Positions 4,500-20,338 of a stretch of DNA of 20,338 bases are shown here, piece after piece (positions within the stretch are counted from its first letter, which is position 1; each line of letters opens with the position of its first letter). The translations under genes and the position numbers were made by a program. The stretch lies in IMG/VR virus record IMGVR_UViG_3300011010_000317, positions 1 to 20,338 of that record; one strand, 5' to 3'. The DNA is from a virus. Under the pieces are notes generated by a model that saw nothing but the letters and a program-made list of their open reading frames with translations, made no database searches and was not told where the DNA came from.

Positions 4500-4524
4500 A
4501 ACAAGCAATTAATTGGTCACAAAT

Positions 4525-6007: not shown

Positions 6008-7132
6008 ATGTCTCGTGGAGATCTACAAGAAATGGAAGTGGGCACTAAGCAATCCAAAACTGCTGTAAATTCTAATGCTACAGCAGCAGATTCAATGACA
6101 TCATTATCTGGAAACTTACCACCAGGTCAAACTGGTAGTTATGAAGACCTCGGTGGTCCTACTCCAGAAAATTATAAGTCAGATGATGATTCAGCAAAAC
6201 TTAAAACTCCTGGTGCAACACTCAAACAAGTAAGAGATGTTGTAAATAAGGGAGCAAAACCTGCTGATGCAATGAAAGAAGAAGAAGATCTTGAAGACGA
6301 AGATTTTATTGAAGAAGAAATGCATGATGAAGAAGATGAAGACGATGAGGAAGATGAAGACGATGAGGAAGAAGATGACGAAGAAGATGACGAAGAAGAA
6401 GTACAAGAAGATTTTGATATTGAAGACGATGTAAATGCTCTTCTTGATGGTGAAGAACTATCTGAAGAGTTCCAACTAAAAGCAAGAACCATTTTTGAGG
6501 CTGCTCTCAGATCTAAGGTTAGTGAAATTAAGGAATCTATTGAAGATCAATATGCAAGAGCACTTGTTGAAGAGGTTGAAGAAATTAAAACCGAACTCAA
6601 CGAACGTGTAGATTCTTATCTAGAATATGTTGCTGATGAATGGTTCACCGAAAATTGCCTTGCGATTGAGCAAGGACTTAAGGCAGAACTTACAGAATCC
6701 TTCATCCAAGGAATGAAGGGTCTTTTTGAAGATCATTATGTAGAAATCCCTGAAGATAAATATGATGTTTTAGATAGTATGGTAGAAAAACTTGATGAAA
6801 TGGAAACAAAACTCAACGAGCAAATTGAGAAAAACGTTTCCCTAAACAAGCGTCTCTCAGAGTCGGTTGCTGATGGAATCTTTGAACAAGTTTCTGGTGG
6901 ACTTGCTGCCACTCAGAAAGATAAGCTCGCTTCACTTGCCGAAAGTGTTGAGTTTGAAAGTGAATCAGAATATCGCGGAAAACTGGAGACATTGAAGGAA
7001 TCTTATTTCCCAACATACAAATCTCCAAGATCCAAACCTGAAAATTTGTCAGAAGGCGTAGATAGTTCACCTGAATCTATTTCAGGAACAATGGCATCTT
7101 ATCTGAACACTCTTTCAAGATTTAATAAATAA
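6008..7132 (+). CDS. 22: Prohead scaffold (core) protein gp22
   Basis: Main internal scaffold of the prohead, around which gp23 assembles and which gp21 later degrades. The 374-residue product is longer than T4 gp22 (269 aa). Three parts can be seen: a polar N-terminus containing TKQSKTAVNSNATAADSM, a pattern typical of cyanophage gp22; an extremely acidic tract of Glu and Asp at about residues 91-135; and a long helical region (residues 150-300) with heptad-like Leu/Val spacing and many Glu/Lys residues, including LDEMETKLNEQIEKNVSLNKRL, consistent with coiled coil. The C-terminus reads SGTMASYLNTLSRFNK. A CGGAG ribosome binding site ends 7 bases before the ATG. It lies between protease and capsid genes as in T4. 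The acidic tract is encoded by short tandem repeats. Confidence 0.93.
   Translation: MSRGDLQEMEVGTKQSKTAVNSNATAADSMTSLSGNLPPGQTGSYEDLGGPTPENYKSDDDSAKLKTPGATLKQVRDVVNKGAKPADAMKEEEDLEDEDFIEEEMHDEEDEDDEEDEDDEEEDDEEDDEEEVQEDFDIEDDVNALLDGEELSEEFQLKARTIFEAALRSKVSEIKESIEDQYARALVEEVEEIKTELNERVDSYLEYVADEWFTENCLAIEQGLKAELTESFIQGMKGLFEDHYVEIPEDKYDVLDSMVEKLDEMETKLNEQIEKNVSLNKRLSESVADGIFEQVSGGLAATQKDKLASLAESVEFESESEYRGKLETLKESYFPTYKSPRSKPENLSEGVDSSPESISGTMASYLNTLSRFNK
6332..6391 (+). repeat. Short in-frame tandem repeats encoding the gp22 acidic tract
   Basis: Two perfect tandem copies of an 18-base unit (6332-6349, 6350-6367) are followed directly by two perfect copies of a 12-base unit (6368-6379, 6380-6391). 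All units are multiples of three and encode only Glu and Asp, so copy number can change without breaking gene 22. Confidence 0.85.
7125..7131 (+). promoter_or_regulatory. T4-type late promoter box before gp23
   Basis: ATAAATA overlapping the last codons and stop of gene 22, 53 bases before the major capsid gene ATG. Likely late promoter; the leader would be longer than for gp19 or gp20. Confidence 0.5.
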
Positions 7133-7184: not shown

Positions 7185-7508
7185 ATGTTTCAATCAGAAC
7201 ATCTGCAGGAAAAGTGGGCTCCTCTCCTCAACTATGAGGGTCTTGATTCAATCAAAGATTCACATCGTAGAGCGGTAACCGCAGTCCTGTTAGAGAACCA
7301 AGAAAGATTTTTAAGAGAGCAATCCTCATTTGATAATGGTTCATTGTCAATGTTGATGGAATCTCCAACCAACAGCGGTAATGCTGCTGGTGCTAGTGGA
7401 GGATTCGGTGGTGGTGCTGGTCTAGCATCTGGTCCTACTGCTGGTTTTGATCATTCGGTGGTGGTTCTGCTGCTGCTGGTCCTACTGCTGGTTTCGATCC
7501 AGTTCTAA
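7185..7508 (+). CDS. 23: Major capsid protein gp23, N-terminal part (frame broken)
   Basis: N-terminal part of the major head protein. It starts MFQSEHLQEKWAPLLNYEGL, which is diagnostic of cyanophage gp23, from an ATG with AAGG 9 bases upstream. The reading continues through DSHRRAVTAVLLENQERFLREQ and a Gly/Ala-rich linker ending GPTAGFD at 7451. After that the frame reads nonsense: a run of Val/Leu produced by reading the linker codons one base off, ending at a TAA at 7506-7508. The rest of gp23 continues in the frame one base back (-1). The shift must occur after the in-frame stop of that second frame at 7448-7450. In T4 gp23 the N-terminal 65 residues form the piece that gp21 removes. As written this segment alone cannot form a capsid protein. 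Confidence 0.9.
   Translation: MFQSEHLQEKWAPLLNYEGLDSIKDSHRRAVTAVLLENQERFLREQSSFDNGSLSMLMESPTNSGNAAGASGGFGGGAGLASGPTAGFDHSVVVLLLLVLLLVSIQF
7403..7496 (+). repeat. Imperfect tandem repeat (47-50 bases) in the gp23 linker, at the frame break
   Basis: Two adjacent copies start at 7403 and 7453. They share a perfect 13-base 5' part (7403-7415 and 7453-7465) and a perfect 17-base 3' part (7431-7447 and 7478-7494), with a differing 15- or 12-base middle. The copies encode FGGGAGLASGPTAGFD and FGGGSAAAGPTAGFD but in different frames, since the offset (50, then 47 bases) is not a multiple of three. Confidence 0.85.
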
Positions 7509-8665
7509 TCTCATTGATTAGACGTTCAATGCCTAATCTGGTTGCTTACGACCTTGCTGGCGTACAACCAATGAGCGGTCCTACTGGACTCATCTTCGCA
7601 ATGCGCTCACGTTATGTAAATCAGAGTGGTACTGAAGCATTCTACAACGAAGTAGATTCAGCATTCTCTGGTCAAGATGCCGGTCTTGATGAATCTGCTG
7701 GATTCAGTGATACTGCTGCTGGTATTGGTACCACTGCTCAAAGTGGAACTAATCCTTCAGTTTTAAACCCTGTTGGTACTGCTACTTCTACTGCCTATAA
7801 CGTAGGTCAGGGAATGGTTACTGGTGATGCAGAGAACCTTGATGGTACCGGTGCTGATGCTTTCAACCAGATGGCATTCTCAATCGAGAAAGTCACTGTG
7901 ACTGCAAAGTCACGCGCACTGAAAGCTGAGTATTCATTAGAACTCGCACAAGACCTTAAGGCAATTCACGGTTTGAATGCTGAGGCAGAATTGGCAAATA
8001 TTCTCTCTACAGAGATTCTTGCTGAAATTAACCGTGAAGTTATCAGAACCATCTATAAGGTTGCTGAGCAAGGTGCTGTACAGAATACCGCAACTGCTGG
8101 TATCTTTGACCTTGACGTTGATTCCAATGGTCGTTGGTCAGTTGAGAAGTTCAAAGGACTTCTATTCCAGATTGAGCGTGATGCTAACGCAATCGCACAA
8201 AGAACTCGTCGTGGAAAGGGCAACATCATTATGTGCTCTGCTGACGTTGCTTCAGCACTGACCATGGCTGGTGTTCTTGACTACACCCCTGCTCTTAATG
8301 CTAATCTCAACGTAGATGACACTGGTAACACCTTTGCTGGTGTTCTACAAGGTAAGTATCGTGTTTATATCGATCCTTATTCTGCTAACCTGACCTCAGG
8401 TAATGCATCTCCTGGTAATCAGTATTATGTTGTTGGTTATAAGGGTTCTTCCCCTTATGATGCTGGACTATTCTATTGTCCTTATGTTCCTCTCCAAATG
8501 GTTCGTGCCGTTGGTGAGAACAACTTCCAACCAAAAATTGGATTCAAGACTCGTTATGGTCTTGTTGCCAATCCATTTGCCGAAGGAACTGCTCAAGGTC
8601 TTGGAGCACTCAGAGTGAACGCTAACCGTTACTACAGAAGAGTTGCTGTAAAAAATCTAATGTGA
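7451..8665 (+). CDS. 23: Major capsid protein gp23, main C-terminal part (frame broken)
   Basis: The body of the T4-like major capsid protein, HK97-fold. In this frame the first codons after the stop at 7448-7450 read SFGGGSAAAGPTAGFDPVLI, then LIRRSMPNLVAYDLAGVQPM, SGPTGLIFAMRSRY, the TVTAKSRALKAEYSLELAQDL block, NREVIRTIYKVAEQGA, NIIMCSADVASAL, and YCPYVPLQM, ending NRYYRRVAVKNLM. These are standard gp23 blocks. The first possible start, TTG at 7514, lies inside a conserved block and has no ribosome binding site, so this is not an independent gene. Joined to the part at 7185 by a -1 shift, the product would be about 493 residues, a normal length for cyanophage gp23. An intrinsic terminator follows. 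Confidence 0.92.
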   Translation, partial: SFGGGSAAAGPTAGFDPVLISLIRRSMPNLVAYDLAGVQPMSGPTGLIFAMRSRYVNQSGTEAFYNEVDSAFSGQDAGLDESAGFSDTAAGIGTTAQSGTNPSVLNPVGTATSTAYNVGQGMVTGDAENLDGTGADAFNQMAFSIEKVTVTAKSRALKAEYSLELAQDLKAIHGLNAEAELANILSTEILAEINREVIRTIYKVAEQGAVQNTATAGIFDLDVDSNGRWSVEKFKGLLFQIERDANAIAQRTRRGKGNIIMCSADVASALTMAGVLDYTPALNANLNVDDTGNTFAGVLQGKYRVYIDPYSANLTSGNASPGNQYYVVGYKGSSPYDAGLFYCPYVPLQMVRAVGENNFQPKIGFKTRYGLVANPFAEGTAQGLGALRVNANRYYRRVAVKNLM

Positions 8666-8732: not shown

Positions 8733-9287
8733 ATGGCAAGAAGTAATACACAAATAGAAAATAGAAATTTTCTTTCTCCTACTGGATTCAAATTTTCTTT
8801 AAAAAGAAGTCCTAAAGTTGCATTTTTTTGCAATCAAGCAAATATACCAGACCTCAATTTAGGTGTTGCAATTCAACCATCATATCTAAAAGATATTGAT
8901 ACTCCTGGAGATAAAATTGTATTTGGTGATTTAAATATTAGATTTTTAGTTGATGAAAATCTTGAAAATTATATGGAAATTCAAAATTGGATTCGTGGAC
9001 TTGGATATCCAGAAAGTTTGGAAGAAATTTATGATCTTCAAAAAAATGGAATTGTAAATCCAAAATATCAACAAAAATCAATGAATATTTACTCTGATGG
9101 AACTTTACAAATTTTAAGTAGTAATTTAATTGCAAAGTTTAATGTAAGTTTTAAAGATTTATTTCCATATTCTCTTTCTACAATTAGTTTTGATGCAACA
9201 GATACTGATATTCAATACTTTACAGCAGACGTAAGTTTCAAGTATACTATCTACAATATAACTGATTTAAGTGGAAATAATTTATGA
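8733..9287 (+). CDS. 3: Tail-tube-fold protein, probable tail completion/sheath stabiliser gp3
   Basis: 184-residue protein with the conserved cyanophage pattern NFLSPTGFKFSLKRSPKV, then FFCNQANIPDLNLG, DIDTPGDKIVFGDLNIRFLV, and NYMEIQNWIRGLGYP. Its layout parallels gp19 at 2187: CNQANIP with CKAANLP, TPGDKIVF with VAGDRTYD, and a following beta-strand then a NW(I/M) helix. This supports a tail-tube fold. In T4-like cyanophages the gene between gp23 and uvsW is usually gp3, which caps the tail tube end and stabilises the sheath; that name rests on position and size (T4 gp3 176 aa). A tail-tube initiator such as gp54 is a less likely alternative. There is no ribosome binding site and almost no leader. 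The ATG of the next gene overlaps its stop by 4 bases. Confidence 0.75.
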   Translation: MARSNTQIENRNFLSPTGFKFSLKRSPKVAFFCNQANIPDLNLGVAIQPSYLKDIDTPGDKIVFGDLNIRFLVDENLENYMEIQNWIRGLGYPESLEEIYDLQKNGIVNPKYQQKSMNIYSDGTLQILSSNLIAKFNVSFKDLFPYSLSTISFDATDTDIQYFTADVSFKYTIYNITDLSGNNL

Positions 9288-9721
9288 ATTTTGACCTTGA
9301 TATGATTCAAAAAATGTGGGAAAAAGATTCAATAATTGATCCAGATAATCTACATACAGAATCATTGAAAATACCAGCACTACACGCAAAATACTTTGAT
9401 ATCTATAATAATACAATACTTCTAAAAAAGAAAGCAGAACAACAAAGAAAAAATATTAGACACGAAAGATATGAATATTACTCAGGAAAATCAGATCCAG
9501 AAACTTATATAGAAACTCCATTTCCTAAAAAGATTAGAGATAAAGATACTCTACAAAAATATTTGGATGCTGATGAAAAACTTTCATCAGTTTCATTAAA
9601 AAATGACTATTACGATACAATGATTTTTTATATTGATAATATTCTTAAAATGATACACAATAGAACATATCAGATTAAAAATGCCATAGAATATCAAAAA
9701 TTTATGAGTGGATTAGGGTAG
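9284..9721 (+). CDS. uvsY: Recombination mediator UvsY
   Basis: Mediator that loads the UvsX recombinase onto gp32-coated single-stranded DNA in recombination-dependent replication and repair. The 145-residue product matches T4 UvsY (137 aa) in length and pattern: an N-terminal DLDMIQKMWEKDSIIDPDNL (T4 has DLQEEL...VFIDSTKL), PALHAKYFDIYN, a basic helix KKKAEQQRKNIRHERYEYYSGK (T4 ends LDYYSGRGD), LDADEKL (T4 LSADKDV), and a C-terminal helix IHNRTYQIKNAIEYQKF (T4 SRGFAIKHIQDMRAF). It overlaps the gp3-like gene by ATGA, so it is translationally coupled to a tail gene and would be transcribed from the same late-type promoter. The downstream uvsW gene acts in the same pathway. Confidence 0.88.
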   Translation: MNFDLDMIQKMWEKDSIIDPDNLHTESLKIPALHAKYFDIYNNTILLKKKAEQQRKNIRHERYEYYSGKSDPETYIETPFPKKIRDKDTLQKYLDADEKLSSVSLKNDYYDTMIFYIDNILKMIHNRTYQIKNAIEYQKFMSGLG

Positions 9722-9728
9722 ATAAATA
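9722..9728 (+). promoter_or_regulatory. T4-type late promoter box before uvsW
   Basis: GATAAATAC starting one base after the uvsY stop, 22 bases before the uvsW GTG. T4 uvsW is known to be a late gene, so the match is consistent with family behaviour. Confidence 0.6.
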
Positions 9729-9749
9729 CTCACAGGTGAACAAATCATC

Positions 9750-11219
9750 GTGAGTGTAACAGACGTTATTATTAAAAAAGCAAACGAAGTATTTTTAAAT
9801 TTAGAAACTCAACCACACATTGAGTATGAGTTAAGAGATCATTTTACATTCCAAGTAGATGGGGCAAAGTTTATGCCCCAGTATAGAAATAAGCATTGGA
9901 ATGGTGAAATTCATTTATTTGATATTAGAACTAAACAGATTTATGTTGGTCTTTTAGATAAGATTATAAGTTTTTGTGAGCAATCTAATTATACTTATAC
10001 ATTTGAAGACAATAAATTTTATGGACAACCCTTTGAAATAAATGAGGGTATCTCACTTGAAGGTGTTCAAGATTATATGAAATCTATTTGTTGTCACACT
10101 CCTCGTGACTATCAAGTAGAGGGAGTATATGGTGCATTAAGGCATAATCGAAAACTATTGATATCTCCCACTGCATCAGGCAAATCTCTGATGATTTATT
10201 CGTTAGTGAGATACTATGTAGATAAACACGAAAAAATACTTTTAGTTGTTCCAACGACATCACTCGTGGAGCAAATGTATAAAGATTTTCAGGACTATGG
10301 TTGGGATGCTGAATCATATTGTCACAGAATTTATTCAGGAAGAGAAAAAACAAACGAACATCCAGTTACAATTACAACCTGGCAGTCAATATACAAACTT
10401 GAACGTTCTTTCTTTGAAGATTATGGTGTCATTATAGGTGATGAAGCTCATTTATTCAAGAGCAAGTCATTAATCTCAATCATGACTAAATTACATCATG
10501 CCAAATATCGTTTTGGATTTACTGGAACTTTAGATGGAACTCAAACTCATAAGTGGGTTTTAGAAGGATTATTTGGTCCTTCATATAAAGTTACAAGAAC
10601 AGATGTGTTGATGAAGCAAGGACATCTTTCTCAGTTGGATATTCAGTGTATAGTTCTTAAACATTCTCCTAAGAAGTTTGATGTGTATGAAGATGAGATA
10701 CAATACTTAATAACTCATGATAAAAGAAATAACTTTATTAAAAATCTTGCATTAGATTTAAAAGGAAACACTTTAGTTTTATACAGTAGAGTTGAAACAC
10801 ACGGATCTATATTATATGAAAAGATAAATAGTAATAAGAAGAATGATAGAAAAGTTTTCTTTATTCATGGTGGTGTGGATACTGAAGAAAGAGAGCTCAC
10901 TCGTGAGATTACTGAAAAGGAAAATGATGCGATTATTGTTGCTTCTTATGGTACATTTTCAACTGGTATCAATATTCAAAATCTACATAATGTAATATTT
11001 GCTTCTCCTAGTAAATCTAGAATTAGAAATCTTCAATCAATTGGAAGAGTTTTAAGAAAAGGTAAAAACAAAACAAAAGCAGTCTTGTATGATATCTCTG
11101 ATGATTGTACTTACAACTCAAGAAAAAACTATACTCTCAATCACTTTATAGAAAGAATTAAAATATATAATGAAGAAAAATTCAATTACGAAATAATTAC
11201 AATACAACTCAAAAACTAA
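9750..11219 (+). CDS. uvsW: UvsW RNA-DNA and DNA helicase (SF2)
   Basis: ATP-dependent superfamily 2 helicase that unwinds R-loops, remodels branched recombination intermediates and helps switch phage replication from origin-dependent to recombination-dependent mode. The 489-residue product (T4 503 aa) has an N-terminal substrate-binding domain (HIEYELRDHFTFQVDGAKFMP, then YRNKHWNGEIHLFD), Walker A SPTASGKS at 139-146 with Lys145, a DEAH box at 231-234, motif III-like FGFTGTLDG, and motif VI QSIGRVLRKGK at about 429-439 with the Arg433 and Arg436 fingers. The start is GTG, supported by an AGGTGA ribosome binding site 10 bases upstream. It follows uvsY, and its stop overlaps the next ATG by one base (TAATG). 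Confidence 0.95.
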   Translation: MSVTDVIIKKANEVFLNLETQPHIEYELRDHFTFQVDGAKFMPQYRNKHWNGEIHLFDIRTKQIYVGLLDKIISFCEQSNYTYTFEDNKFYGQPFEINEGISLEGVQDYMKSICCHTPRDYQVEGVYGALRHNRKLLISPTASGKSLMIYSLVRYYVDKHEKILLVVPTTSLVEQMYKDFQDYGWDAESYCHRIYSGREKTNEHPVTITTWQSIYKLERSFFEDYGVIIGDEAHLFKSKSLISIMTKLHHAKYRFGFTGTLDGTQTHKWVLEGLFGPSYKVTRTDVLMKQGHLSQLDIQCIVLKHSPKKFDVYEDEIQYLITHDKRNNFIKNLALDLKGNTLVLYSRVETHGSILYEKINSNKKNDRKVFFIHGGVDTEERELTREITEKENDAIIVASYGTFSTGINIQNLHNVIFASPSKSRIRNLQSIGRVLRKGKNKTKAVLYDISDDCTYNSRKNYTLNHFIERIKIYNEEKFNYEIITIQLKN

Positions 11220-11608
11220 TGGAAGAAGATTTTTACTCAACAATAAAATTAAAATCAGGTGAAGAAATATTTGCCAAAGTATCTGCTGTGGAAGAAGAAG
11301 ATAAAACTTTATTAATTATTCTAAATCCAATTATGATATCAGAAATTAAAAATAGATTTGGAGTTTCTGGATATAAGTTTGAACCTTGGATGAAGACAAC
11401 AACAGAGGATATGTTTGTTATTAATTTAAATGATGTGCTTACAATGTCAGAATCTTTTGATATTGAAATGATTGTGATGTATCAATCATATGTGAGACAA
11501 CTGGATACAAAAGGAATTAATGAATCTAAACCAAGTAAAACAATGGGTTATCTTTCAAATGTAAATGATGCTAAAGAAATCTTGGAGAAGCTCTATAAGA
11601 TTAGTTAA
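11219..11608 (+). CDS. Small protein with an LSm-like N-terminal domain, function unknown
   Basis: 129-residue product, translationally coupled to uvsW through a TAATG overlap. The first 80 residues (STIKLKSGEEIFAKVSAVEE, DKTLLIILNPIMI, then a strand-rich stretch ending TEDMFVINLNDVLTMSES) follow the Sm/LSm pattern: a short helix, a strand with K-L-x-S-G-x-E-I, a strand with A-K-V, an Asp-x-x-hydrophobic turn, and a later hydrophobic strand. LSm proteins, including Hfq, form rings that bind RNA. The C-terminal 45 residues are polar and end in a helix (DAKEILEKLYKI). Similar proteins occur beside uvsW in cyanophages, usually called hypothetical. The fold is a pattern-based guess; RNA binding is not shown. 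The gene is followed by a 123-base gap holding a sigma70-like promoter. Confidence 0.8.
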   Translation: MEEDFYSTIKLKSGEEIFAKVSAVEEEDKTLLIILNPIMISEIKNRFGVSGYKFEPWMKTTTEDMFVINLNDVLTMSESFDIEMIVMYQSYVRQLDTKGINESKPSKTMGYLSNVNDAKEILEKLYKIS

Positions 11609-11677
11609 GTATCTCTAAGTAACTTATACCAATCTTTTCAACCCTGACAAAGGTTATTGTACCCTTATTTGTGAAAC

Positions 11678-11706
11678 TTGTCAACTATTAAAATACGTGT
11701 TATAAT
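11678..11706 (+). promoter_or_regulatory. Sigma70-like promoter upstream of gp55
   Basis: TTGTCA (11678-11683), a 17-base spacer, and a perfect TATAAT (11701-11706). Transcription would begin near 11713, just before the gp55 gene. The host sigma factor could use it early in infection. It is the only strong -35/-10 pair I found and starts the gp55-gp47-gp46 unit. Confidence 0.8.
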
Positions 11707-11731
11707 TCATACATATTAATGAACAAAACTT

Positions 11732-12229
11732 ATGATAACAACAAATGTTATGACTAAAAGAAAAAGGTCAGATCATTATGTAAATAATAAAGATTTTCTT
11801 GCTGCTCTCATTAAGTACAGGGAAGATGTTGAAATTGCTTCTCTTCAAGACAAACCCAAACCAGTAATACCACGTTACATAGGTGAATGTTTTTTAAAGA
11901 TTGCTAATCATCTTTCATTCAAGCCAAACTTCGTAAATTATATGTTTAAGGACGATATGATTTGTGATGGGATTGAAAATTGTGTTCAGTATATTCATAA
12001 CTTTAATCCAAAGAAATCTGAAAATCCTTTTGCTTACTTTACACAGATTATCTATTATGCTTTTCTTCGTCGTATACAAAGAGAAAAACGTCAATTAGAA
12101 ATCAAAAATAAAATACTTGAACGTTCTGGATTCAGTGAAGTATTTACTGATGACAATACCCTTGACGGTGGAAATTATTCAGACTATAATAGTATCAAAG
12201 ACGATATACACAGTAAAATAAGATATTAG
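11732..12229 (+). CDS. 55: Late sigma factor gp55
   Basis: Phage-encoded sigma factor that redirects host RNA polymerase to late promoters with the TATAAATA box; it acts with coactivator gp33 and the sliding clamp gp45. The 165-residue product (T4 185 aa) has the diagnostic HYVNNKDFLAALIKYREDV near the N-terminus (T4 NYVNNKELLQAIIDWK), ECFLKIANHLSFKPNFVNYM, DDMICDGIENCVQYIHNFNP, and NPFAYFTQIIYYAFLRRIQREKRQ, corresponding to a sigma region 2-like core. The ATG at 11732 gives an N-terminus of MITTNV before a second ATG at 11750; MTKRKRSDHYVNN from 11750 looks equally natural, and neither has a ribosome binding site. The C-terminus stops at DDIHSKIRY, without the hydrophobic clamp-binding tail known in T4 gp55. 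gp47 begins 4 bases downstream. Confidence 0.9.
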   Translation: MITTNVMTKRKRSDHYVNNKDFLAALIKYREDVEIASLQDKPKPVIPRYIGECFLKIANHLSFKPNFVNYMFKDDMICDGIENCVQYIHNFNPKKSENPFAYFTQIIYYAFLRRIQREKRQLEIKNKILERSGFSEVFTDDNTLDGGNYSDYNSIKDDIHSKIRY

Positions 12230-12233
12230 TTTT

Positions 12234-13268
12234 ATGCGTGTTGCAATAATCACTGATAGTCACTACGGTTGCCGGAAAGGTTCAAAACTTTTTCAGGATT
12301 ACTTTGAGCAATTTTATAAAAATGTATTTTTCCCGACATTAGAAAAGGAAGAAATCACTACAGTAATGCATCTTGGAGATGCTTTTGATAGTCGTAAGTC
12401 AATTGATTATCAGAGTTTGGAATGGACAAAAAGAGTTGTATTAGATCCTCTTTTAAAATATGATGTACACATGCTCGTTGGAAATCACGATGCTTATTAT
12501 AAAAATACTAATAGTGTAAACTCTCCCTCACTTTTGCTTCAAAATTATTCAAATATAAAAACTTATAGTGACCCTGAAGTTATTAAAATTGGAAACTTAA
12601 ATGTTCTTCTGATTCCTTGGATTTGTGCTGATAATGAAGAAAAAACTTTACGTCTAATCAAAAAGAGTGGGTGTAAAGTTGCTATGGGGCACTTGGAATT
12701 GAATGGATTTCAAGCTTATCGTGGGCATACAATGGATGATGGTATGGATTCCATTATGTTTGATGATTTTACAAAAGTATTTTCTGGGCATTATCATACT
12801 CGTTCAAATAATGGTACTGTATTTTATCTTGGAAATCCTTATGAGATTTTTTGGAATGATGTAAATGATACTCGTGGATTTCATATCTTTGATACTGAAA
12901 CTCTTGAACATACTCCTGTAAATAATCCATATAAAATGTATTATGTGATTTATTATGATGACGATAATTATCAAACTTTTGATACTCGTGAGTATGAAAA
13001 TAAAATTGTAAAAGTAATAGTTCGTAAGAAATCAAATACTAAAAAATTTGAAAAGTTTATTGATAAACTTTATACCTCAAATATATCTGAACTTAAAATT
13101 GTTGAAAACCTCCAAATTGAAGAAAATGAAGAATTTGAGGCTTATGAATCAGAGGATACACTTTCTATTTTGAATCGTTATGTTGAAGAATCTGAAATAT
13201 CTCTTGATAAATCAATTGTTCAGAAAATGCTTCATGAAATTTATCGTGAGGCATGTGAAATAGTTTAG
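12234..13268 (+). CDS. 47: Recombination endonuclease subunit gp47 (Mre11-like)
   Basis: Nuclease subunit of the gp46/gp47 complex, which resects double-strand ends for recombination-dependent replication and degrades host DNA. The 344-residue product (T4 339 aa) carries the calcineurin-like phosphoesterase motifs in order: DSH (Asp8, His10), GDAFDSR (Asp49), GNHD (Asn84, His85, Asp86), GHLEL (His153) and GHYH (His186, His188), which bind the two metal ions. The C-terminal third is variable and probably contacts gp46. It is 4 bases after gp55 and 2 bases before the DUF3110 gene, in a tight operon driven from the promoter near 11701. Confidence 0.95.
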   Translation: MRVAIITDSHYGCRKGSKLFQDYFEQFYKNVFFPTLEKEEITTVMHLGDAFDSRKSIDYQSLEWTKRVVLDPLLKYDVHMLVGNHDAYYKNTNSVNSPSLLLQNYSNIKTYSDPEVIKIGNLNVLLIPWICADNEEKTLRLIKKSGCKVAMGHLELNGFQAYRGHTMDDGMDSIMFDDFTKVFSGHYHTRSNNGTVFYLGNPYEIFWNDVNDTRGFHIFDTETLEHTPVNNPYKMYYVIYYDDDNYQTFDTREYENKIVKVIVRKKSNTKKFEKFIDKLYTSNISELKIVENLQIEENEEFEAYESEDTLSILNRYVEESEISLDKSIVQKMLHEIYREACEIV

Positions 13269-13270
13269 AT

Positions 13271-13528
13271 ATGTTTTTACTAACAATTTACGGTAGAGAA
13301 AGAGAGGGGGCATATTCTGTTGTGAATGAATATGGGGAAAAAATTCTATACCTCTTTGAAGAAGAAGATGATGCTGAAAGATATGCTATGATGCTTGAAG
13401 AAGATGGACATCCAGAAATGCATCTAATTGAAATTGAAGATGACATTATGTTACAAACTTGCAATTTAAATGACTATAAGTATACTATTATTACTTCAAA
13501 TGATATTGTAATTCCTCCAAATTATTAA
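13271..13528 (+). CDS. DUF3110 family protein, function unknown
   Basis: 85-residue acidic protein. The central EEEDDAERYAMMLEEDGHPEMHLIEIE matches the DUF3110 pattern (FEDEDDAERYAxLLE...), a small family otherwise typical of cyanobacteria and plastids. It has no signal peptide or membrane segment. It starts 2 bases after gp47 and stops 2 bases before gp46, so it is embedded between the two subunits of one nuclease complex and is presumably made with them. The family's biochemical function is not established. The position is common in T4-like cyanophages and is one of the better signs that the host is a cyanobacterium. Confidence 0.85.
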   Translation: MFLLTIYGREREGAYSVVNEYGEKILYLFEEEDDAERYAMMLEEDGHPEMHLIEIEDDIMLQTCNLNDYKYTIITSNDIVIPPNY

Positions 13529-13530
13529 TA

Positions 13531-15243
13531 ATGATTACATTTAAGACCATAAAATGGAAGAACTTTCTTTCTACCGGTAATCAATTTACCGAAGTTAATT
13601 TCACTAAAAACAAAACTAATTTAATTATTGGTACAAATGGTGCTGGTAAGAGTACAATTTTAGATGCATTATGCTTCTCTTTGTTTGGACGTAGTTTTAG
13701 AAAAATTAATAAACCACAACTTATCAATACAGTTAATGAGAAAGATTGTATTGTTGAAGTTGAATTTTTAATTGGAACATTAGAATGGAAAGTGATTCGT
13801 GGAATCAAACCAAATATCTTTGAAATTTATTGTAATGATAAAGTCATAGACCAAGTTTCTGCCTCAAATGACCAACAGAAATGGTTAGAGCAGACAGTTC
13901 TTAAAATGAATTATAAGTCATTTACACAAATTGTAATATTGGGGTCAAGTGCATTTGTTCCTTTTATGCAACTTCCTACATCACATCGTAGAGAAGTGAT
14001 TGAAGATTTATTGGATATAAAAATCTTTTCTTCAATGAATACTGTAATTAAAGAAAAGATTCGTAAGATTCGTGATGAAGTAAAAACTTTAGAACTTAAA
14101 AAAGAATCTCTTTTTGATAAAGTTGAAATGCAAAAAAACTTTATTGAAGAACTTGAGAATCGTGGAAATGCAAATATAAATGCTAATAAAGAAAAGATTG
14201 CTAATTTAGATTCTGAAGTTGTTGATTGTATAAAAGAAAATACTTTAATTGAAGAAGATGTTCTTAACAATATAAAAAAACAAGAAGAAGTTTCTGGCGC
14301 ATCTGATAAACTCAAAAAACTTGGAACATTAAAAGGTAAAATATCACAGAAAGTATCAACAATTACTGTTGAACATAAATTTTTTAATGAAAATACGGTA
14401 TGCCCTACATGTACACAGGAGATTGATGAAGAATTTAGAATAAATAAAATTAATGATGCTCAAAATAAGGCCAAGGATTTGCAATCTGGTTATAAAGAAC
14501 TGGAGGTAGCAATCAAAGAGGAAGAAGATCGAGAGCATCAATTTATAACACTTTCAAAAGAGATTACAAAACTTACACATGAAGTTTCTAGGAACAATAC
14601 TAAAATCTCTGGATGCCAAAGGCAAATCAGAGATCTTGAAAATGAAATTCAAAAACTTACCAATCAACTTAAAAACAGAAATTCTGAACATGAAAAATTA
14701 GAATCATTTCAAGAAACTCTTCATAATACTTATGATGAATTAGCAATCAAAAAAGATTCTATTAATTACTATGATTTTTCTTATGGTCTTTTAAAAGACG
14801 GTGGAGTTAAATCTAAAATTATTAAAAAATATCTACCATTAATTAATCAGCAAGTCAATCGTTATTTACAGATGATGGACTTTTATATAAACTTTACTCT
14901 TGATGAAGAGTTTAATGAAACTGTTCAATCTCCAATTCATGAAGATTTCTCATATGCTTCTTTTAGTGAAGGTGAGAAACAACGTATAGATTTAGCATTA
15001 CTTTTTACTTGGAGAGAAGTCGCACGAATGAAAAATTCTGTGAACTGTAATTTGATGATACTTGATGAGATTTTTGATAGTTCTTTAGATTCTTCTGGAA
15101 CAGAAGAGTTTCTTAAAATTATTCAGTTTGTAGTAAAGGATGCTAATATTTTTGTTATCTCTCATAAAGCAGGATTGGAAGACCGATTTGAAAGTGTAAT
15201 TAAATTTTCCAAGATAAAGGGGTTTAGCAGAATAGACACTTAA
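13531..15243 (+). CDS. 46: Recombination endonuclease subunit gp46 (Rad50/SbcC-like ATPase)
   Basis: ATPase and DNA-bridging subunit of the gp46/gp47 complex. The 570-residue product (T4 560 aa) has the full SMC-like layout: an N-terminal half-domain with Walker A GTNGAGKS at 34-41 (Lys40), a long charged coiled coil (about residues 160-450) interrupted by the zinc hook CPTC at 291-294, an ABC signature FSEGEKQR with Ser479, and Walker B LMILDEIFD with Asp512 and catalytic Glu513, followed by VISHKAG. All key residues are intact. Start is an ATG two bases after the DUF3110 stop. A terminator lies 15 bases beyond the stop codon, so this is the last gene of the gp55-gp46 unit. Confidence 0.97.
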   Translation: MITFKTIKWKNFLSTGNQFTEVNFTKNKTNLIIGTNGAGKSTILDALCFSLFGRSFRKINKPQLINTVNEKDCIVEVEFLIGTLEWKVIRGIKPNIFEIYCNDKVIDQVSASNDQQKWLEQTVLKMNYKSFTQIVILGSSAFVPFMQLPTSHRREVIEDLLDIKIFSSMNTVIKEKIRKIRDEVKTLELKKESLFDKVEMQKNFIEELENRGNANINANKEKIANLDSEVVDCIKENTLIEEDVLNNIKKQEEVSGASDKLKKLGTLKGKISQKVSTITVEHKFFNENTVCPTCTQEIDEEFRINKINDAQNKAKDLQSGYKELEVAIKEEEDREHQFITLSKEITKLTHEVSRNNTKISGCQRQIRDLENEIQKLTNQLKNRNSEHEKLESFQETLHNTYDELAIKKDSINYYDFSYGLLKDGGVKSKIIKKYLPLINQQVNRYLQMMDFYINFTLDEEFNETVQSPIHEDFSYASFSEGEKQRIDLALLFTWREVARMKNSVNCNLMILDEIFDSSLDSSGTEEFLKIIQFVVKDANIFVISHKAGLEDRFESVIKFSKIKGFSRIDT

Positions 15244-15258
15244 ATATCTGTCCACTGC

Positions 15259-15282
15259 GGTGCCTTTATGGGCACCCTTTTT
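15259..15282 (+). terminator. Intrinsic terminator after gp46
   Basis: Six-bp GC-rich stem GGTGCC / GGCACC with a 6-base loop (TTTATG), then CTTTTT. It lies 15 bases past the gp46 stop and ends the gp55-47-46 transcript. Confidence 0.85.
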
Positions 15283-15290
15283 GTTATGAT
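15282..15290 (+). promoter_or_regulatory. Possible extended -10 promoter before the peptidase/VWA gene
   Basis: TGTTATGAT matches the extended -10 form (TG-n-TATAAT with one mismatch), directly after the terminator T-run and 21 bases before the ATG at 15312. No -35 element is visible at the usual distance, where the terminator hairpin lies. Likely host-sigma promoter. Confidence 0.45.
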
Positions 15291-15311
15291 AGGTTCATAA
15301 GAAAAAAACCG

Positions 15312-17456
15312 ATGCCAGTCAATCACGAAATCAAATCACAACTTGCTAGATTGCTTGCTACTGAAGACTTGGTGGTTGAACACAAAAAAGTACCTACTGC
15401 TTGTTTTAACGTTCATACTCGTGTGTTAACCTTACCTTTGTGGGAAAAGGCAAGCAATATCGTGTATGACTTATTGGTCGGGCACGAAGTTGGCCATGCT
15501 CTTTTTACTGATGATGTTGACTGGACTGAAGAAACTAATGTTCCTCAACAGTTTGTGAATATCGTTGAAGATGCTCGTGTTGAAAAGTTAATTAAACGTA
15601 AGTATGCTGGACTTGCAAAAACATTTTATGGTGGATATAAAGAACTGAAAGAACAAGATTTCTTTGAGATTGGTGATGAAGATATTTCTACTTTTAATCT
15701 TGCTGATCGTGCAAATCTTCACTTTAAAATTGGAAACTTCTTAACATTAGATTTTAATTCTGAAGAAAGTGAGATTATAAACTTAATCGCATCAACTGAA
15801 ACTTTTTCTGATGTGCTGAATGCGGCAGAAGAACTCTATAAGTATTGTAAAAATGAGAAAGAACAAGAACAAAAAGTTAATGAGTTAGATTCTCATAAGT
15901 TAGAAAATAATGATAACTCTTCTAATGAAGGAGAAGAAGAATCACAACAGGAATCTGAAGAATCAGATGAAGGTGAATCAAATAAATCTCAACCTTCAGA
16001 ATCTCAAACAGAACAATCTGAAAGAACTCAAGGAGAATCTGTAAGCAATACTCCTAAAGGATCTTCTAATGAACCAAAAATTCGTACAGAAGAAACTCTT
16101 CGTCAAAAAATTGAAGAACTTGTAAACCTTTCAGGTGGTGAAAATGTTTATGTTGAAATTCCAAAAGTAAATTTAGATACTGTTATCGCAAAAAATTCAG
16201 AAGTTCACGAATATATTGATGACTATTTTCTCAATCAACAAAATGTAAAAGATGATTGGTCAAAAATAAATCAGTTATCTAATCATAATATTTACGAACA
16301 ATCTGATAAATTATTCAAAGAATTTAAAAACTCTGCTCAAAAAGAAGTTAATTACTTAGTAAAAGAATTTGAATGTCGTAAGGCAGCTGATTCATATGCT
16401 CGTATATCAATATCTCGTACTGGTGTTCTTGATACTACTCGTCTTCATACCTATAAGTATAATGAAGATCTTTTTAAGAAAATTAATGTAATACCTGATG
16501 GTAAAAATCACGGATTGATTTTTATTTTAGATTGGAGTGGATCAATGCAAACAGTATTAAAAGATACTTGTAAGCAACTTTACAATCTAATTTGGTTTTG
16601 TAAAAAAGTATCAATACCATTTGAAGTTTATGCCTTTACAAATGAATGGAAGAAGGATCTTAATCCACATTACGAAAGAAAAGAAGGTTTAATATGTGTA
16701 TCTGAAGAATTTTGTTTACTTAATATTTTTACCAGCAAAGTAAACTCCAGATTATTGGAGGCTCAGATGATTAATATCTGGAGACTTTCACTTGCTATTT
16801 CTACTCCTTATTCCTGCCAATATTCATTCCCTGGTCGTCTCTCTCTTTCTGGTACTCCACTAAATGAAAGTTTGATTGCCCTACACCAAATACTTCCAAA
16901 GTTTCGTAAAGATAATAAACTACAAAAAGTTCAGTGTGTAATTTTAACTGATGGTGAGGCAAATTATCTTCCATATCACCACATAGTAAAACGTGGAGGA
17001 AATGATTATATGGGTGCTCGTGGAATGAATCCAAGTCAGTCTTTTCTTCGGGATCGTAAGATTGGAACAACTTATAAAATGGGTACTACTTACCATTCCT
17101 TTACAGAAGTTTTAATCTCTAATCTCAAAGATAACTTTCCATCTGTTAACTTTGTAGGTATTCGTGTTCTTGAAAATAAAGATACCTCTCGTTTTGTGAG
17201 TTTATATTACAAGCAACCATCTCCAGAATATGATAAAATTATGTCTTACTGGAAAAAGCATAGAAGTCTTAATATCTCAAATTCAGCATATGATGCTTAT
17301 TTTGGACTCTCTGCAAGTTCTCTTGCTCAGGATACTGAATTTGATGTTGCTGATGATGCGACTAAGGCACAGATTAAATCTGCATTTGTAAAATCTCTGA
17401 AAACTAAGAAGTTGAATAAGAAAGTTCTTGGTGAGTTTGTAAGTATCATTTCATAA
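15312..17456 (+). CDS. Metallopeptidase-like plus VWA domain protein (CobT-like)
   Basis: 714-residue protein in three parts. The N-terminal part has a zinc-peptidase HEVGH motif (His58, Glu59, His62) and, further on, NIVEDARVEK, whose Glu86 or Asp87 could be the third ligand. Residues about 180-260 are a low-complexity Ser/Glu/Gln linker. The C-terminal part is a von Willebrand factor A domain with an intact metal site: DWSGSM (Asp407, Ser409, Ser411), Thr515 in SGTPLNES, and Asp547 in LTDGEAN. CobT, the partner of CobS in aerobic cobaltochelatase, has this same acidic-linker-plus-VWA arrangement. The downstream gene at 17946 is a CobS/MoxR-like ATPase, so the two probably act together as an ATP-driven remodelling complex. 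No chelatase CobN is seen, so a role in cobalamin synthesis is not supported. It has no ribosome binding site. Confidence 0.85.
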   Translation: MPVNHEIKSQLARLLATEDLVVEHKKVPTACFNVHTRVLTLPLWEKASNIVYDLLVGHEVGHALFTDDVDWTEETNVPQQFVNIVEDARVEKLIKRKYAGLAKTFYGGYKELKEQDFFEIGDEDISTFNLADRANLHFKIGNFLTLDFNSEESEIINLIASTETFSDVLNAAEELYKYCKNEKEQEQKVNELDSHKLENNDNSSNEGEEESQQESEESDEGESNKSQPSESQTEQSERTQGESVSNTPKGSSNEPKIRTEETLRQKIEELVNLSGGENVYVEIPKVNLDTVIAKNSEVHEYIDDYFLNQQNVKDDWSKINQLSNHNIYEQSDKLFKEFKNSAQKEVNYLVKEFECRKAADSYARISISRTGVLDTTRLHTYKYNEDLFKKINVIPDGKNHGLIFILDWSGSMQTVLKDTCKQLYNLIWFCKKVSIPFEVYAFTNEWKKDLNPHYERKEGLICVSEEFCLLNIFTSKVNSRLLEAQMINIWRLSLAISTPYSCQYSFPGRLSLSGTPLNESLIALHQILPKFRKDNKLQKVQCVILTDGEANYLPYHHIVKRGGNDYMGARGMNPSQSFLRDRKIGTTYKMGTTYHSFTEVLISNLKDNFPSVNFVGIRVLENKDTSRFVSLYYKQPSPEYDKIMSYWKKHRSLNISNSAYDAYFGLSASSLAQDTEFDVADDATKAQIKSAFVKSLKTKKLNKKVLGEFVSIIS

Positions 17457-17459
17457 ATA
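17453..17459 (+). promoter_or_regulatory. T4-type late promoter box before the capsid-targeting-like gene
   Basis: ATAAATA overlapping the stop of the peptidase/VWA gene and 19 bases before the ATG at 17479. It is the only late-type intergenic box right of uvsW, and its first bases downstream are identical to those of the box at 8717. Confidence 0.6.
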
Positions 17460-17478
17460 CTTAAAAAATAAATTAGAT

Positions 17479-17694
17479 ATGAAGACGTTTAAGAATTTTG
17501 TTGTAGAGGCAGGGGATTACTGGCATCCAGACGAAAATGAAGATAAAAAACTTCCTGGTAAAGGACCTCAAGAACGAGCTCGTGAAAACAGGGGACAAGA
17601 TGTTTCACCACAAACAAAACCAGACTATAGTAAAAGATTAAAACCTGGTGAAACTTATATGCAATTTGCTAAACGTAAAGCGGCAGGAGGATGA
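17479..17694 (+). CDS. Small protein with a T4 capsid-targeting-like N-terminus
   Basis: 71-residue, highly charged protein beginning MKTFKNFVVEA. T4 internal head proteins such as IPIII begin MKTYQEFIAEA, a capsid-targeting sequence that brings them into the prohead and is removed by gp21 after the Glu. Here cleavage after Glu10 (V-V-E before A) would leave a 61-residue mature protein, AGDYWHPDENE onward, rich in Lys, Asp, Pro and Gly, ending YMQFAKRKAAGG. A late promoter box precedes it, as expected for a packaged protein. The role is inferred from the N-terminus and promoter only. Its stop overlaps the next ATG by 4 bases. Confidence 0.8.
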   Translation: MKTFKNFVVEAGDYWHPDENEDKKLPGKGPQERARENRGQDVSPQTKPDYSKRLKPGETYMQFAKRKAAGG

Positions 17695-17876
17695 AAAATA
17701 AATTTCCACTTGAGCACTTTGTAAAATCTGACACCAAAGAAGTTTGGGTAAGATGTGATAGTGCCATTACTGCAATGGGTATTGGTTCTATGGTTGAAAA
17801 ATATTACCCTGGATATAAGGGGCACATTGGTAGTCAAGAGCATATTGAAAAACTCAAGAACCAATTGATGAACTGA
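17691..17876 (+). CDS. Small hypothetical protein
   Basis: 61-residue protein, MKNKFPLEHFV onward, with no family I recognise. It contains VWVRCDSAITAMGIGSMVEKYYPGY and ends in a basic helix HIEKLKNQLMN. It overlaps the previous stop as ATGA; a GGAGG lies immediately against the ATG (17686-17690), too close for an ordinary ribosome binding site, so reinitiation after the upstream gene is likely. A small hairpin overlaps its stop codon. Probably expressed with the capsid-targeting-like gene. Confidence 0.7.
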   Translation: MKNKFPLEHFVKSDTKEVWVRCDSAITAMGIGSMVEKYYPGYKGHIGSQEHIEKLKNQLMN

Positions 17877-17892
17877 CCATAGGATGGTCTTT
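17875..17892 (+). terminator. Weak hairpin terminator candidate
   Basis: Six-bp stem GACCAT / ATGGTC with a 3-base AGG loop, followed by only three T. It overlaps the last base pair of the preceding stop codon and lies just before a TATAAT box, so it separates two transcription units. The short T-run makes it weak. Confidence 0.45.
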
Positions 17893-17909
17893 GTGCTCTC
17901 CTTTCATTG

Positions 17910-17915
17910 TATAAT
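17910..17915 (+). promoter_or_regulatory. Perfect TATAAT -10 box before the AAA+ ATPase gene
   Basis: TATAAT preceded by TG, in the 69-base gap before the ATG at 17946. No clear -35 is seen at 16-18 bases. A probable early promoter that lets the ATPase be expressed separately from the late unit before it. Confidence 0.55.
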
Positions 17916-17945
17916 GACTATAGTCAAAAACAAACAATCAACTCC

Positions 17946-19046
17946 ATGAAACGAATTCAAATGACTGACGATCAAGTTCTTTCAGATCTCAAGAATACTT
18001 TTGGTAAAGAGTTTATTGCTGCTGATGTTCGTGGGTATTGTGTTTCTAAAAATATTTCATATCCAACTGTAACCAAACGTTTAGAAAACTTTAAGGTTGG
18101 ACGTGGTAAATGGAATTTAGAAGTGACACAAAGAAAAGTTCGAGAAATAGAACGTAGTTATTCTGCCCCTGCTGCTCTTCCTGCTGTGGAACAAAATCTT
18201 ATTCCTGATAAAGATGATACTTTCGTCAAGTTTGGTAACTTCAATGATATTAAGAAAATTATTCAGTCCAATCTTTTTTATCCGACATTTATCACGGGTC
18301 TTTCGGGTAATGGTAAAACGTTCAGTGTTGAGCAAGCTTGTGCTCAACTTGGTAGGGAACTAATTCGTGTAAATATTACAATAGAAACTGATGAAGATGA
18401 TTTGATTGGTGGATTTCGTTTAATAAATGGTGAAACTGCTTGGCATAATGGCCCAGTTATTGAGGCACTTGAAAGAGGTGCGATTCTTCTTCTTGATGAG
18501 GTTGATTTAGCATCCAATAAAATACTTTGTCTTCAATCTGTTCTGGAAGGTAAAGGTGTATTTTTAAAGAAGATTGGTAAGTTTGTAAGACCTACTTCTG
18601 GATTTAATATATTTGCAACTGCTAATACAAAAGGTAAAGGTAGTGAGGATGGAAGGTTTATTGGAACTAATGTTCTTAATGAAGCATTTTTAGAAAGATT
18701 TCCTGTAACCTTTGAGCAGTCATATCCTGCTCCCTCAGTAGAACAAAGAATTTTAGAAGGTGTTGCTCTTGATTTGGGTATTGAAGATAAAGAGTTTTGT
18801 AAGAGACTTGTAGATTGGGGTGATGTAATCCGTAAGACCTTTTATGATGGTGGTATTGAAGAAATCATTTCCACTCGTCGTTTAGTTCATATTCTTCGTG
18901 CTTATAGTATCTTTCAAGATAAAGGTAAGGCAATTCAAGTTTGTGTAAATCGTTTTGATGATGAAACCAAACAGGCATTCCTTGAACTTTATGATAAGAT
19001 TGATATTGATTTTAAACTTCCTGTTGACGAATCTGAATCAAACTGA
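17946..19046 (+). CDS. cobS: MoxR/CobS-like AAA+ ATPase
   Basis: 366-residue AAA+ ATPase of the MoxR/CobS type; such proteins pair with VWA-domain partners to remodel target complexes. Visible elements are an N-terminal region (residues 1-90, with SDLKNTFGKEFIAADVRGYC and TVTKRLENFKVGRG), Walker A GLSGNGKT at 118-125 (Lys124), ETDEDDLIGGFR, Walker B ILLLDEVD at 180-187 (Asp184, Glu185), sensor 1 FATANT with Asn227, and an Arg finger in EAFLERF (Arg251). Cyanophage homologues are commonly labelled cobS. I chose ATG 17946, since the upstream TTG at 17907 overlaps the -10 box. Its probable partner is the VWA protein at 15312. A hairpin follows the gene. Confidence 0.88.
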   Translation: MKRIQMTDDQVLSDLKNTFGKEFIAADVRGYCVSKNISYPTVTKRLENFKVGRGKWNLEVTQRKVREIERSYSAPAALPAVEQNLIPDKDDTFVKFGNFNDIKKIIQSNLFYPTFITGLSGNGKTFSVEQACAQLGRELIRVNITIETDEDDLIGGFRLINGETAWHNGPVIEALERGAILLLDEVDLASNKILCLQSVLEGKGVFLKKIGKFVRPTSGFNIFATANTKGKGSEDGRFIGTNVLNEAFLERFPVTFEQSYPAPSVEQRILEGVALDLGIEDKEFCKRLVDWGDVIRKTFYDGGIEEIISTRRLVHILRAYSIFQDKGKAIQVCVNRFDDETKQAFLELYDKIDIDFKLPVDESESN

Positions 19047-19052
19047 TATGAT

Positions 19053-19079
19053 AAGAGGAGGTAAATACTCCTCTTCTTT
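19053..19079 (+). terminator. Hairpin terminator candidate after the AAA+ ATPase gene
   Basis: Perfect 8-bp stem AAGAGGAG / CTCCTCTT (19053-19060, 19068-19075) with a 7-base loop, followed by CTTT. The T-run is poor, so it may be partial or serve to stabilise an mRNA end. Confidence 0.55.
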
Positions 19080-19099
19080 GTTCCTTAGTGTGAAAAATT

Positions 19100-19645
19100 A
19101 TGACTGAAAATTTTGAATCAAATTATGAAAGTTTTATTCCAGAAAAACCTCCTTCTGTAACATTTGGTGCTGCTTCTATTACTGGAAGTCATCTTCTTGG
19201 TGGAATGGGAGAAGATCATCTTTCTTTCAATTGCAATAATTACTGGGAAGATGATGGATTTAGTTTAACTGGAAATCCATTTGTTCCTTTTTCTTCTTCT
19301 GATAATGTTGTTCTAAATTCACCAATATCAAAAAATCATCTTTGGAAATATAATGAAGATCAAATTCTTAAGGATGTTTCAGAGTATGTGACAAGCACTT
19401 ATGGTAGTCACTACTGCGGACAAAATCAAGAGTATAAAGATATTCAAACAATTGATTTGATAGCAGCAAAGGATCTGGCACCAGATTTTTGTCAGTCAAA
19501 TATTCTTAAATATGGATCTCGTTATGGAGCAAAAAACGGACGAAATAAAAGTGATTTACTTAAGGTAATTCACTATGCTATGCTACTACTTCACTTTGAT
19601 GGTCATTATACTCGCAAGAATAATGGACTTTCTGAATTCAAATAA
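19100..19645 (+). CDS. DUF3310 protein, T7 gp1.7 nucleotide-kinase-like
   Basis: 181-residue protein in two parts. Residues 1-85 are polar and aromatic, without a recognised domain. The C-terminal half reads SHYCGQNQEYKDIQTIDLIAAKDL, then FCQSNILKYGSRYGAKNGRNKSDLLKVIHYAMLLL, which fits DUF3310: a leading H-Y, an E/D-x-I-D helix, a N-x-x-K-Y-x-x-R-x-x-x-K core and a D-L-x-K helix. T7 gp1.7, a member, phosphorylates dGMP and dTMP. Its place two bases before the sliding clamp gene suits a role in supplying DNA precursors. Activity is inferred from the family only, and the N-terminal extension is unusual. No ribosome binding site is near the ATG. Confidence 0.8.
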   Translation: MTENFESNYESFIPEKPPSVTFGAASITGSHLLGGMGEDHLSFNCNNYWEDDGFSLTGNPFVPFSSSDNVVLNSPISKNHLWKYNEDQILKDVSEYVTSTYGSHYCGQNQEYKDIQTIDLIAAKDLAPDFCQSNILKYGSRYGAKNGRNKSDLLKVIHYAMLLLHFDGHYTRKNNGLSEFK

Positions 19646-19668
19646 TAATGAAACTGCGAAATCAAATT

Positions 19669-20334
19669 ATGAAACTTTCTGACAAAACTCTGTCTTTGCT
19701 AAAAAACTTCTCTGGTATCAATCAATCTATTCTTTTTAAGGAAGGTGATAAACTTCGCACTATTTCAGTGATGAAGAACATACTTGCTGAGGCAACGATT
19801 ACTGAAACCTTTCCAAAAGACTTTGGAATCTATGATCTAAATCAATTTTTGAATGGTCTCAATCTTCACCAAACACCTGAACTTGATTTTGAGAATGATA
19901 AGTATGTAATGATACGTGAAGGCAAATCAAGGTCTAAGTATTTCTTTGCTGACCCAAGTGTGATTGTAACACCACCAGATAAAGAGATTCTTCTTCCAAG
20001 TGAGGATGTATGCTTTGTGTTGAATACTCAGCAGTTAGATAAGTTACTCAAGGCTGCTGCAATTTATCAACTCCCAGATTTATCTGCTGTTGGTGAGGCA
20101 GGTGTTGTGAAACTGGTAGTAAGAGATAAAAAGAATGATACCTCAAATGATTTTTCTATCGTGGTTGGAGAAACTGATAGCATCTTTACGTTTAACTTTA
20201 AAGTGGAGAATATCAAGATTCTTCCTGGTTCCTATGAGGTTGTCATCTCACAAAAACTTTTGTCACAATTCACAAGCACCGACAGAGATTTGAAGTATTA
20301 TATTGCTATGGAACCCGATTCTACATTTGAATGA
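19669..20334 (+). CDS. 45: Sliding clamp gp45
   Basis: Trimeric processivity clamp for the gp43 polymerase and also the mobile enhancer for late transcription with gp55 and gp33. The 221-residue product (T4 228 aa) starts MKLSDKTLSLLKNFSGINQSIL, closely following T4 MKLSKDTTALLKNFATINSGIM. It has FGIYDLNQFL, SKYFFADPSVIVTPP (T4 IFWPAADPSTVVAP), TFNFKVENIKILPGSYEV, and ends AMEPDSTFE (T4 ALEADSTHDF). I chose ATG 19669 by this alignment; an in-frame ATG at 19648 would add MKLRNQI. Neither has a clear ribosome binding site. In T4-like phages gp44 and gp62 normally follow, beyond this window. The gene is complete, four bases before the window end. Confidence 0.95.
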   Translation: MKLSDKTLSLLKNFSGINQSILFKEGDKLRTISVMKNILAEATITETFPKDFGIYDLNQFLNGLNLHQTPELDFENDKYVMIREGKSRSKYFFADPSVIVTPPDKEILLPSEDVCFVLNTQQLDKLLKAAAIYQLPDLSAVGEAGVVKLVVRDKKNDTSNDFSIVVGETDSIFTFNFKVENIKILPGSYEVVISQKLLSQFTSTDRDLKYYIAMEPDSTFE

Positions 20335-20338
20335 ATAT

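Follow-up and report, generated by a model that had tools for sequence, protein, structure and literature searches.

The ORF at 17479–17694 (plus strand) of the DNA analyzed here, a viral stretch of 20,338 nucleotides hereafter called the window, very likely (with a probability of roughly 0.83) encodes an internal head protein that is packaged and cleaved by the gp21 protease, both events being inferred for this peptide, for which there are no cleavage data. Observed directly are the ORF itself, a late promoter box upstream of it, a conserved N-terminal leader pattern, the exchange of cargo behind this leader, and the presence of other leader-bearing proteins in virions.

The 20.3 kb window, with the gene order gp18-gp19-gp20-gp21-gp22-gp23-...-uvsY-uvsW-...-gp55-gp47-gp46-peptidase-[17479 ORF]-61 aa ORF-MoxR ATPase-DUF3310-gp45, is a fragment of a T4-like cyanophage, a virus of marine cyanobacteria, as follows from its synteny with annotated S-SRM01 and Sf-FS3 and from family scans. 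The gene at 5311–5961 (plus strand), taken for gp21 in the initial annotation, indeed encodes a prohead protease of the gp21 type (Peptidase_S77, E = 1.4e-31; phrog_207, E = 1.4e-77), the predicted processing enzyme, and is followed at 6008–7132 (plus strand) by the gp22 scaffold gene (T4_CASP, E = 9e-80), whose product in the T4 model is the core that binds the capsid-targeting sequence (CTS). The gp23 major capsid gene (7185–8665) is a single ORF in related phages and lies here in two frames (7185–7508 and 7514–8665), probably due to a frameshift or an assembly error near 7450–7514 of the contig.

The 71-aa product (MKTFKNFVVEAGDYWHPDENEDKKLPGKGPQERARENRGQDVSPQTKPDYSKRLKPGETYMQFAKRKAAGG) begins with the putative capsid-targeting leader MKTFKNFVVE (codons 1–10; 17479–17508, plus strand) followed by Ala, and the predicted gp21 cleavage site is E10/A11 (17506–17511, plus strand), with [ILVM]xE preceding the body module, compared to FIAE/A and FLTE/A at the T4 sites. 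The likeness to the starts of T4 internal proteins, which had been proposed initially, is correct, since IPII and IPIII start with MKTYQEFIAEA and IPI with MKTFKEF. Residues Phe4, Phe7, Val8, and Glu10 correspond to the CTS residues of IPIII, where mutants demonstrate that positions 4 and 7 control targeting, and positions 8 and 10, processing (PMC9026906). Having left out two internal Met artefacts from 26 N-termini located directly before the module, we aligned 24 leader relatives, and in all of them position 4 is F/Y, position 7 is F, position 8 is I/V/M/L/A, and position 10 is E; positions 3, 5, 6, and 9 are variable. The closest relative, L007, has four amino acid changes, at positions 3, 6, 9, and 20, and thus three of the four fall on non-critical leader positions. 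Relatives that keep the protein and lose its N-terminal 11 residues would have refuted the proposed role; the stand-alone relatives retain the leader (24 out of 24 aligned), and the leader-less copies of the module are found inside larger proteins, each after a gp21-like site (20 out of 20).

The pattern M[KR]x[FY]xxFxxE, sought on both strands with all start codons, has the 17479 ORF as its sole match in the window, and picks out ipII and ipIII alone in the 49 kb of T4 scanned. Across related loci totalling 1.26 Mb, it heads 55 distinct ORFs, compared to 0, 0, 0, 0, 2, and 5 ORFs for six control patterns with altered spacing. As the loci are related, the counts of leader ORFs, and also those of late boxes given below, overstate independence.

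The late promoter box CATAAATA (17452–17459, plus strand) does lie 19 nt before the ATG, as had been claimed, and conforms to NATAAATA, the late promoter motif of cyanomyoviruses, in S-PM2 (PMC2984593). ATAAATA occurs in the window 14 times on the plus strand (5.7 expected) and is absent from the minus strand, most copies being located 13–53 nt upstream of gp19, gp20, the ORFs at 4513 and 4755, gp22, and gp23. The neighbors of the ORF had been described as early-looking; the replication and recombination genes at 9284–20334 have no close upstream ATAAATA, with the exception of uvsW and the 17479 ORF. [AC]TAAATA at −30 to −15 is found for 17 out of 27 leader ORFs vs. seven out of 331 other ORFs.

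The predicted mature peptide AGDYWHPD...KRKAAGG (17509–17694 including the stop codon, plus strand) comprises 61 aa and is basic (pI 9.35), in line with the small charged mature part expected from the outset. Its AlphaFold model is largely extended, with short helices (pLDDT 73; pTM 0.36, which is low). The ORF is a single 71-aa module and does not combine domains with differing activities, while its fused relatives consist of at least two modules; neither Pfam nor the solved structures assign the module to a family (best E = 0.026, unconvincing). Homology of the body to IPI, IPII, or IPIII was not found, tblastn returning cyanophages and no T4 record; a tblastn match in an Achromobacter phage (35%, E = 0.1) was dismissed as chance.

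This body of about 60 aa (the WHPD module) is present in 265 phage records, all of them cyanophages except one, and IMG/VR contains it in no fewer than 343 stretches. The only match among genome contigs, in a Nonlabens assembly, was dismissed as a bacterial homologue, as the 188 kb contig of Nonlabens xiamenensis (L163, NZ_RMVE01000006.1) shares 96% identity with cyanophage P-TIM40 in the compared stretch and likely represents phage contamination of the bacterial genome record. The module is found in three settings, namely, alone after the leader, in a leader-bearing fusion with a SAM-lyase-like domain (PF23780, E = 2.5e-14 in L009), and within long basic modular proteins, which usually are encoded between gp16 and gp17 and contain DUF6321 and other repeated modules. 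Directly upstream of the module, [ILVMF]xE is observed in 20 out of 20 internal contexts (background 2.8% per position), the upstream sequences of which form 15 dissimilar clusters; P2 and P1′ are variable, and P3 is hydrophobic throughout. At the edge of the SAM-lyase module, a search not requiring Glu yielded [LIV]xE in nine out of nine contexts. Both edges are built like the gp21 sites of T4, and, judging by the sequences, we infer that the module strings may be cut inside the head.

Exchange of the cargo is seen at the locus itself. Contig L047 matches the window with 97% identity at 15335–17528 and 17691–20335; the two differ only across 17529–17690, the window containing its 71-aa ORF and L047 a 225-aa ORF. 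The 225-aa ORF retains the promoter and the leader, followed by a diverged module and a SAM-lyase domain; the breakpoint falls just after the predicted cleavage site, and from the next start codon onward the sequences match again. In S-SRM01 the slot is occupied by a 302-aa modular protein unrelated to this one, whereas Sf-FS3 has nothing there. In the ip genes of T-even phages the signal is constant and the bodies are variable (PMC12373910), and this layout is likewise seen at the cyanophage slot. Neither the swapping of cargo after the leader nor the modular proteins figured in the initial annotation.

The leader is shared by unrelated bodies, that is, SAM-lyase, ADP-ribosyltransferase-like, kinase-like, and nucleotidyltransferase (cytidylyltransferase) ones; the open-licence literature searched does not describe a leader of this kind from cyanophages. 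Among individual occurrences, a 181-aa protein of L076 starts with the leader MKTFQEFIAEA (located at G004:C1:32491-32522, minus strand) and shows weak PARP/ART similarity (PF00644, E = 4e-4; PF18760), reminiscent of T4 Alt, and in many cyanophages the proteins of family phrog_1742 (MKSF..FLSESVNISGDFNGNLYI) begin with a perfect leader (L002, 6299–6625; S-SZBM1 ORF191; S-SCSM1 ORF30).

Some leader-bearing proteins have been detected in virions. In S-CREM2, 52 virion proteins were identified by mass spectrometry among 219 ORFs (PMC10665884), and these include all five ORFs with a relaxed leader, namely, ORFs 6 (SAM hydrolase), 13, 14 (kinase), 136, and 154 (cytidylyltransferase), with Fisher p = 6.5e-4, which becomes 4.4e-5 when known structural proteins are excluded. 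No S-CREM2 protein matches the strict leader ^M[KR][TS][FY]xxFxxE, and the test was not blind, since the pattern was relaxed with the translations of this phage already in view. In the held-out proteomes of S-SZBM1 (30 out of 218 detected) and S-SCSM1 (45 out of 282), one out of four ORFs with the exact pattern is in the virion, which is not significant (p = 0.48); if the three proteomes are pooled, this is the case for six out of nine leader ORFs (p = 0.0014). One S-SZBM1 protein, ORF57 (MQVIDDFLPEE), looks like a chance match to the leader.

Firmer evidence than this enrichment is provided by an orthologous cytidylyltransferase, which is present in the virions of S-CREM2, S-SCSM1, S-SZBM1, and S-SM1 (T4-GC190) and starts with MKNFSSFLTEA, MKSFLQFLKEA, MRFRQFIIEA, and MKKFSAFLNEA, respectively; the S-SZBM1 protein falls outside the exact pattern because its leader is one residue shorter. 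Moreover, proteins consisting of the leader, the module, and SAM-lyase are 53% identical over 172 aa to the virion protein S-CREM2 ORF6, and modules of the WHPD-bearing strings recur, with up to 89% identity over 83 aa, in the virion proteins SSCSM1_29, SSCSM1_92, SCREM2_160, SCREM2_137, and SZBM1_139. The WHPD module is in no protein so far reported from a virion; SSZBM1_194, which contains it, was not detected in the 30-protein S-SZBM1 proteome, and the small leader-bearing phrog_1742 family was undetected in the virion proteomes of S-SZBM1 and S-SCSM1. The S-CREM2 authors were unable to say whether non-structural virion proteins are packaged or are contaminants (PMC10665884).

An N-terminal module SDGHGxWxDxxGxxVAxTxxGxL is common to Cas9-like, kinase-like, and two cytidylyltransferase virion-type proteins (L070, 7704–10313 and 10579–12846, corresponding to S-CREM2 ORF12 and ORF14; L118, 912; S-SCSM1 ORF91). 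In S-CREM2 ORF12, FASFMAEA is found at residues 19–26, in place of a terminal leader.

The proposed mechanism is as follows. The 17479 ORF would be transcribed late, residues 1–10 would act as a capsid-targeting sequence docking the protein on the prohead core formed by gp22, gp21 would cleave after Glu10, and the basic 61-aa peptide would stay in the head and pass into the host along with the DNA. Cleavage, packaging, and injection of this peptide are all inferences, its ejection into the host being suggested by analogy with T4. In this reading, the promoter and the leader stay constant as a platform, and phages swap the cargo modules that follow it. That the mature peptide acts early, in inhibition of host defense or in host takeover, is a guess with even chances. 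It is made because the usual fusion partner is SAM-lyase-like, that is, anti-restriction, because bodies with the same leader include ADP-ribosyltransferase-like, kinase-like, and nucleotidyltransferase ones, and because T4 internal proteins, all three of them, inhibit restriction enzymes. We are equally undecided as to a more general head-cargo system in Kyanoviridae, with one leader and one late promoter serving exchangeable cassettes, and with larger packaged strings of shuffled modules that would be cleaved inside the head at a gp21 site in front of each module; if it exists, a single gene for such a string supplies the host with several peptides or enzymes.

The leader could also merely dock the protein on the prohead core, with the mature peptide being a scaffolding or DNA-condensing component that serves head assembly and not the host. 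A small basic peptide with a largely extended model is compatible with this, as are the related modules in large basic proteins encoded beside gp16/gp17 and the influence of T4 IPIII on head assembly (PMC9026906), and a structural or DNA-binding role of the peptide in the head remains possible. However, the cargo is swapped between phages that are 97% identical, and its slot is taken by a modular protein of unrelated sequence in S-SRM01 and by nothing in Sf-FS3; a slot that is exchanged, replaced, or empty poorly fits an assembly component, and the partner domains are enzymes acting on host metabolites, so that we regard an assembly role as rather unlikely. It is far less probable that an ordinary late cytoplasmic protein with an unknown function has, by chance, an amphipathic start that matches the leader. 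This would agree with the fact that the 17479 protein itself has not been shown in a virion and with the lack of enrichment of exact-pattern ORFs in the two held-out proteomes, but it hardly accounts for the contrast between 55 ORFs and 0–5 ORFs in the altered-spacing controls, for the conservation of precisely the CTS residues, for one leader being found on unrelated bodies, and for orthologous leader proteins in four virion proteomes.

A further rival reading concerns cleavage. The Glu before the module might only mark where its conserved residues begin, with no cleavage there and the larger proteins remaining intact; common descent alone, as we infer, can fix a residue at a domain edge. Such an explanation seems doubtful given the dissimilarity of the 15 upstream clusters, the variability of P2 and P1′ with P3 staying hydrophobic, and the same [LIV]xE edge in all nine contexts of the unrelated SAM-lyase module. 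The preferred reading, a packaged and gp21-cleaved internal protein, predicts mature N-termini after [ILVM]xE and loss of packaging upon changes of residues 4 or 7.

The 17479 ORF resembles T4 IPI, IPII, and IPIII in the 10-residue leader with aromatic residues at positions 4 and 7, a hydrophobic residue at 8, and Glu at 10, followed by Ala, as well as in the small basic mature part, variable bodies after a constant leader, and a phage-encoded gp21. T4 internal proteins bear the CTS, are processed by gp21, and are injected, whereas the 17479 ORF has a body for which the searches gave no T4 internal protein as a relative and which is a module also present inside larger proteins, and a cyanobacterial host, and its packaging has not been demonstrated. 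Leaders of the same kind are carried by S-CREM2 ORF6 (SAM hydrolase), ORF14 (kinase), and ORF154 (cytidylyltransferase), found in the virion, ORF6 containing the SAM-lyase module that is fused to the WHPD module in relatives; these are large enzymes, unlike the 17479 ORF. The accessible portion of the S-CREM2 publication (PMC10665884) contains no mention of the leader of these proteins. Polyvalent proteins of phages and conjugative elements are multidomain, are injected, and combine anti-restriction and host-modifying domains (PMC5512222), whereas the 17479 ORF consists of one module and a leader, and its multi-module relatives differ from them in being predicted to be cut by gp21 and in having few recognizable enzyme domains. 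Internal proteins with the CTS are already known in T-even phages, and exchangeable cargo of this type has so far been met chiefly in the T4 group of E. coli phages; the exchange of cassettes and the predicted module strings make the present case a variation on them.

Cyanophage virion proteomes repeatedly hold non-structural enzymes and hypothetical proteins, for which the leader supplies a mechanism, and a capsid-targeting leader yields a rule for finding packaged cargo from sequence. The arms race involving T4 internal proteins may thereby be extended to viruses infecting the photosynthetic bacteria that are most abundant; in the literature found, we met no established head-delivered anti-defense protein for cyanobacterial phages.

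Several small ORFs of the window deserve mention. A 61-aa ORF at 17691–17876, without a known family, overlaps the stop codon of the 17479–17694 ORF (GATGA) and is kept at the same position in L007 and L047. Between gp20 and gp21, a short acidic ORF at 4525–4692 (phrog_14164) occupies the position of T4 gp67, stated to be missing from cyanophages (PMC2984593), and has in common with it the equivalent location and an acidic C-terminus. The 184-aa Gly/Ser/Thr-rich ORF at 4755–5309 (phrog_682, unknown function), located between this acidic ORF and gp21, has its own late box 24 nt upstream.
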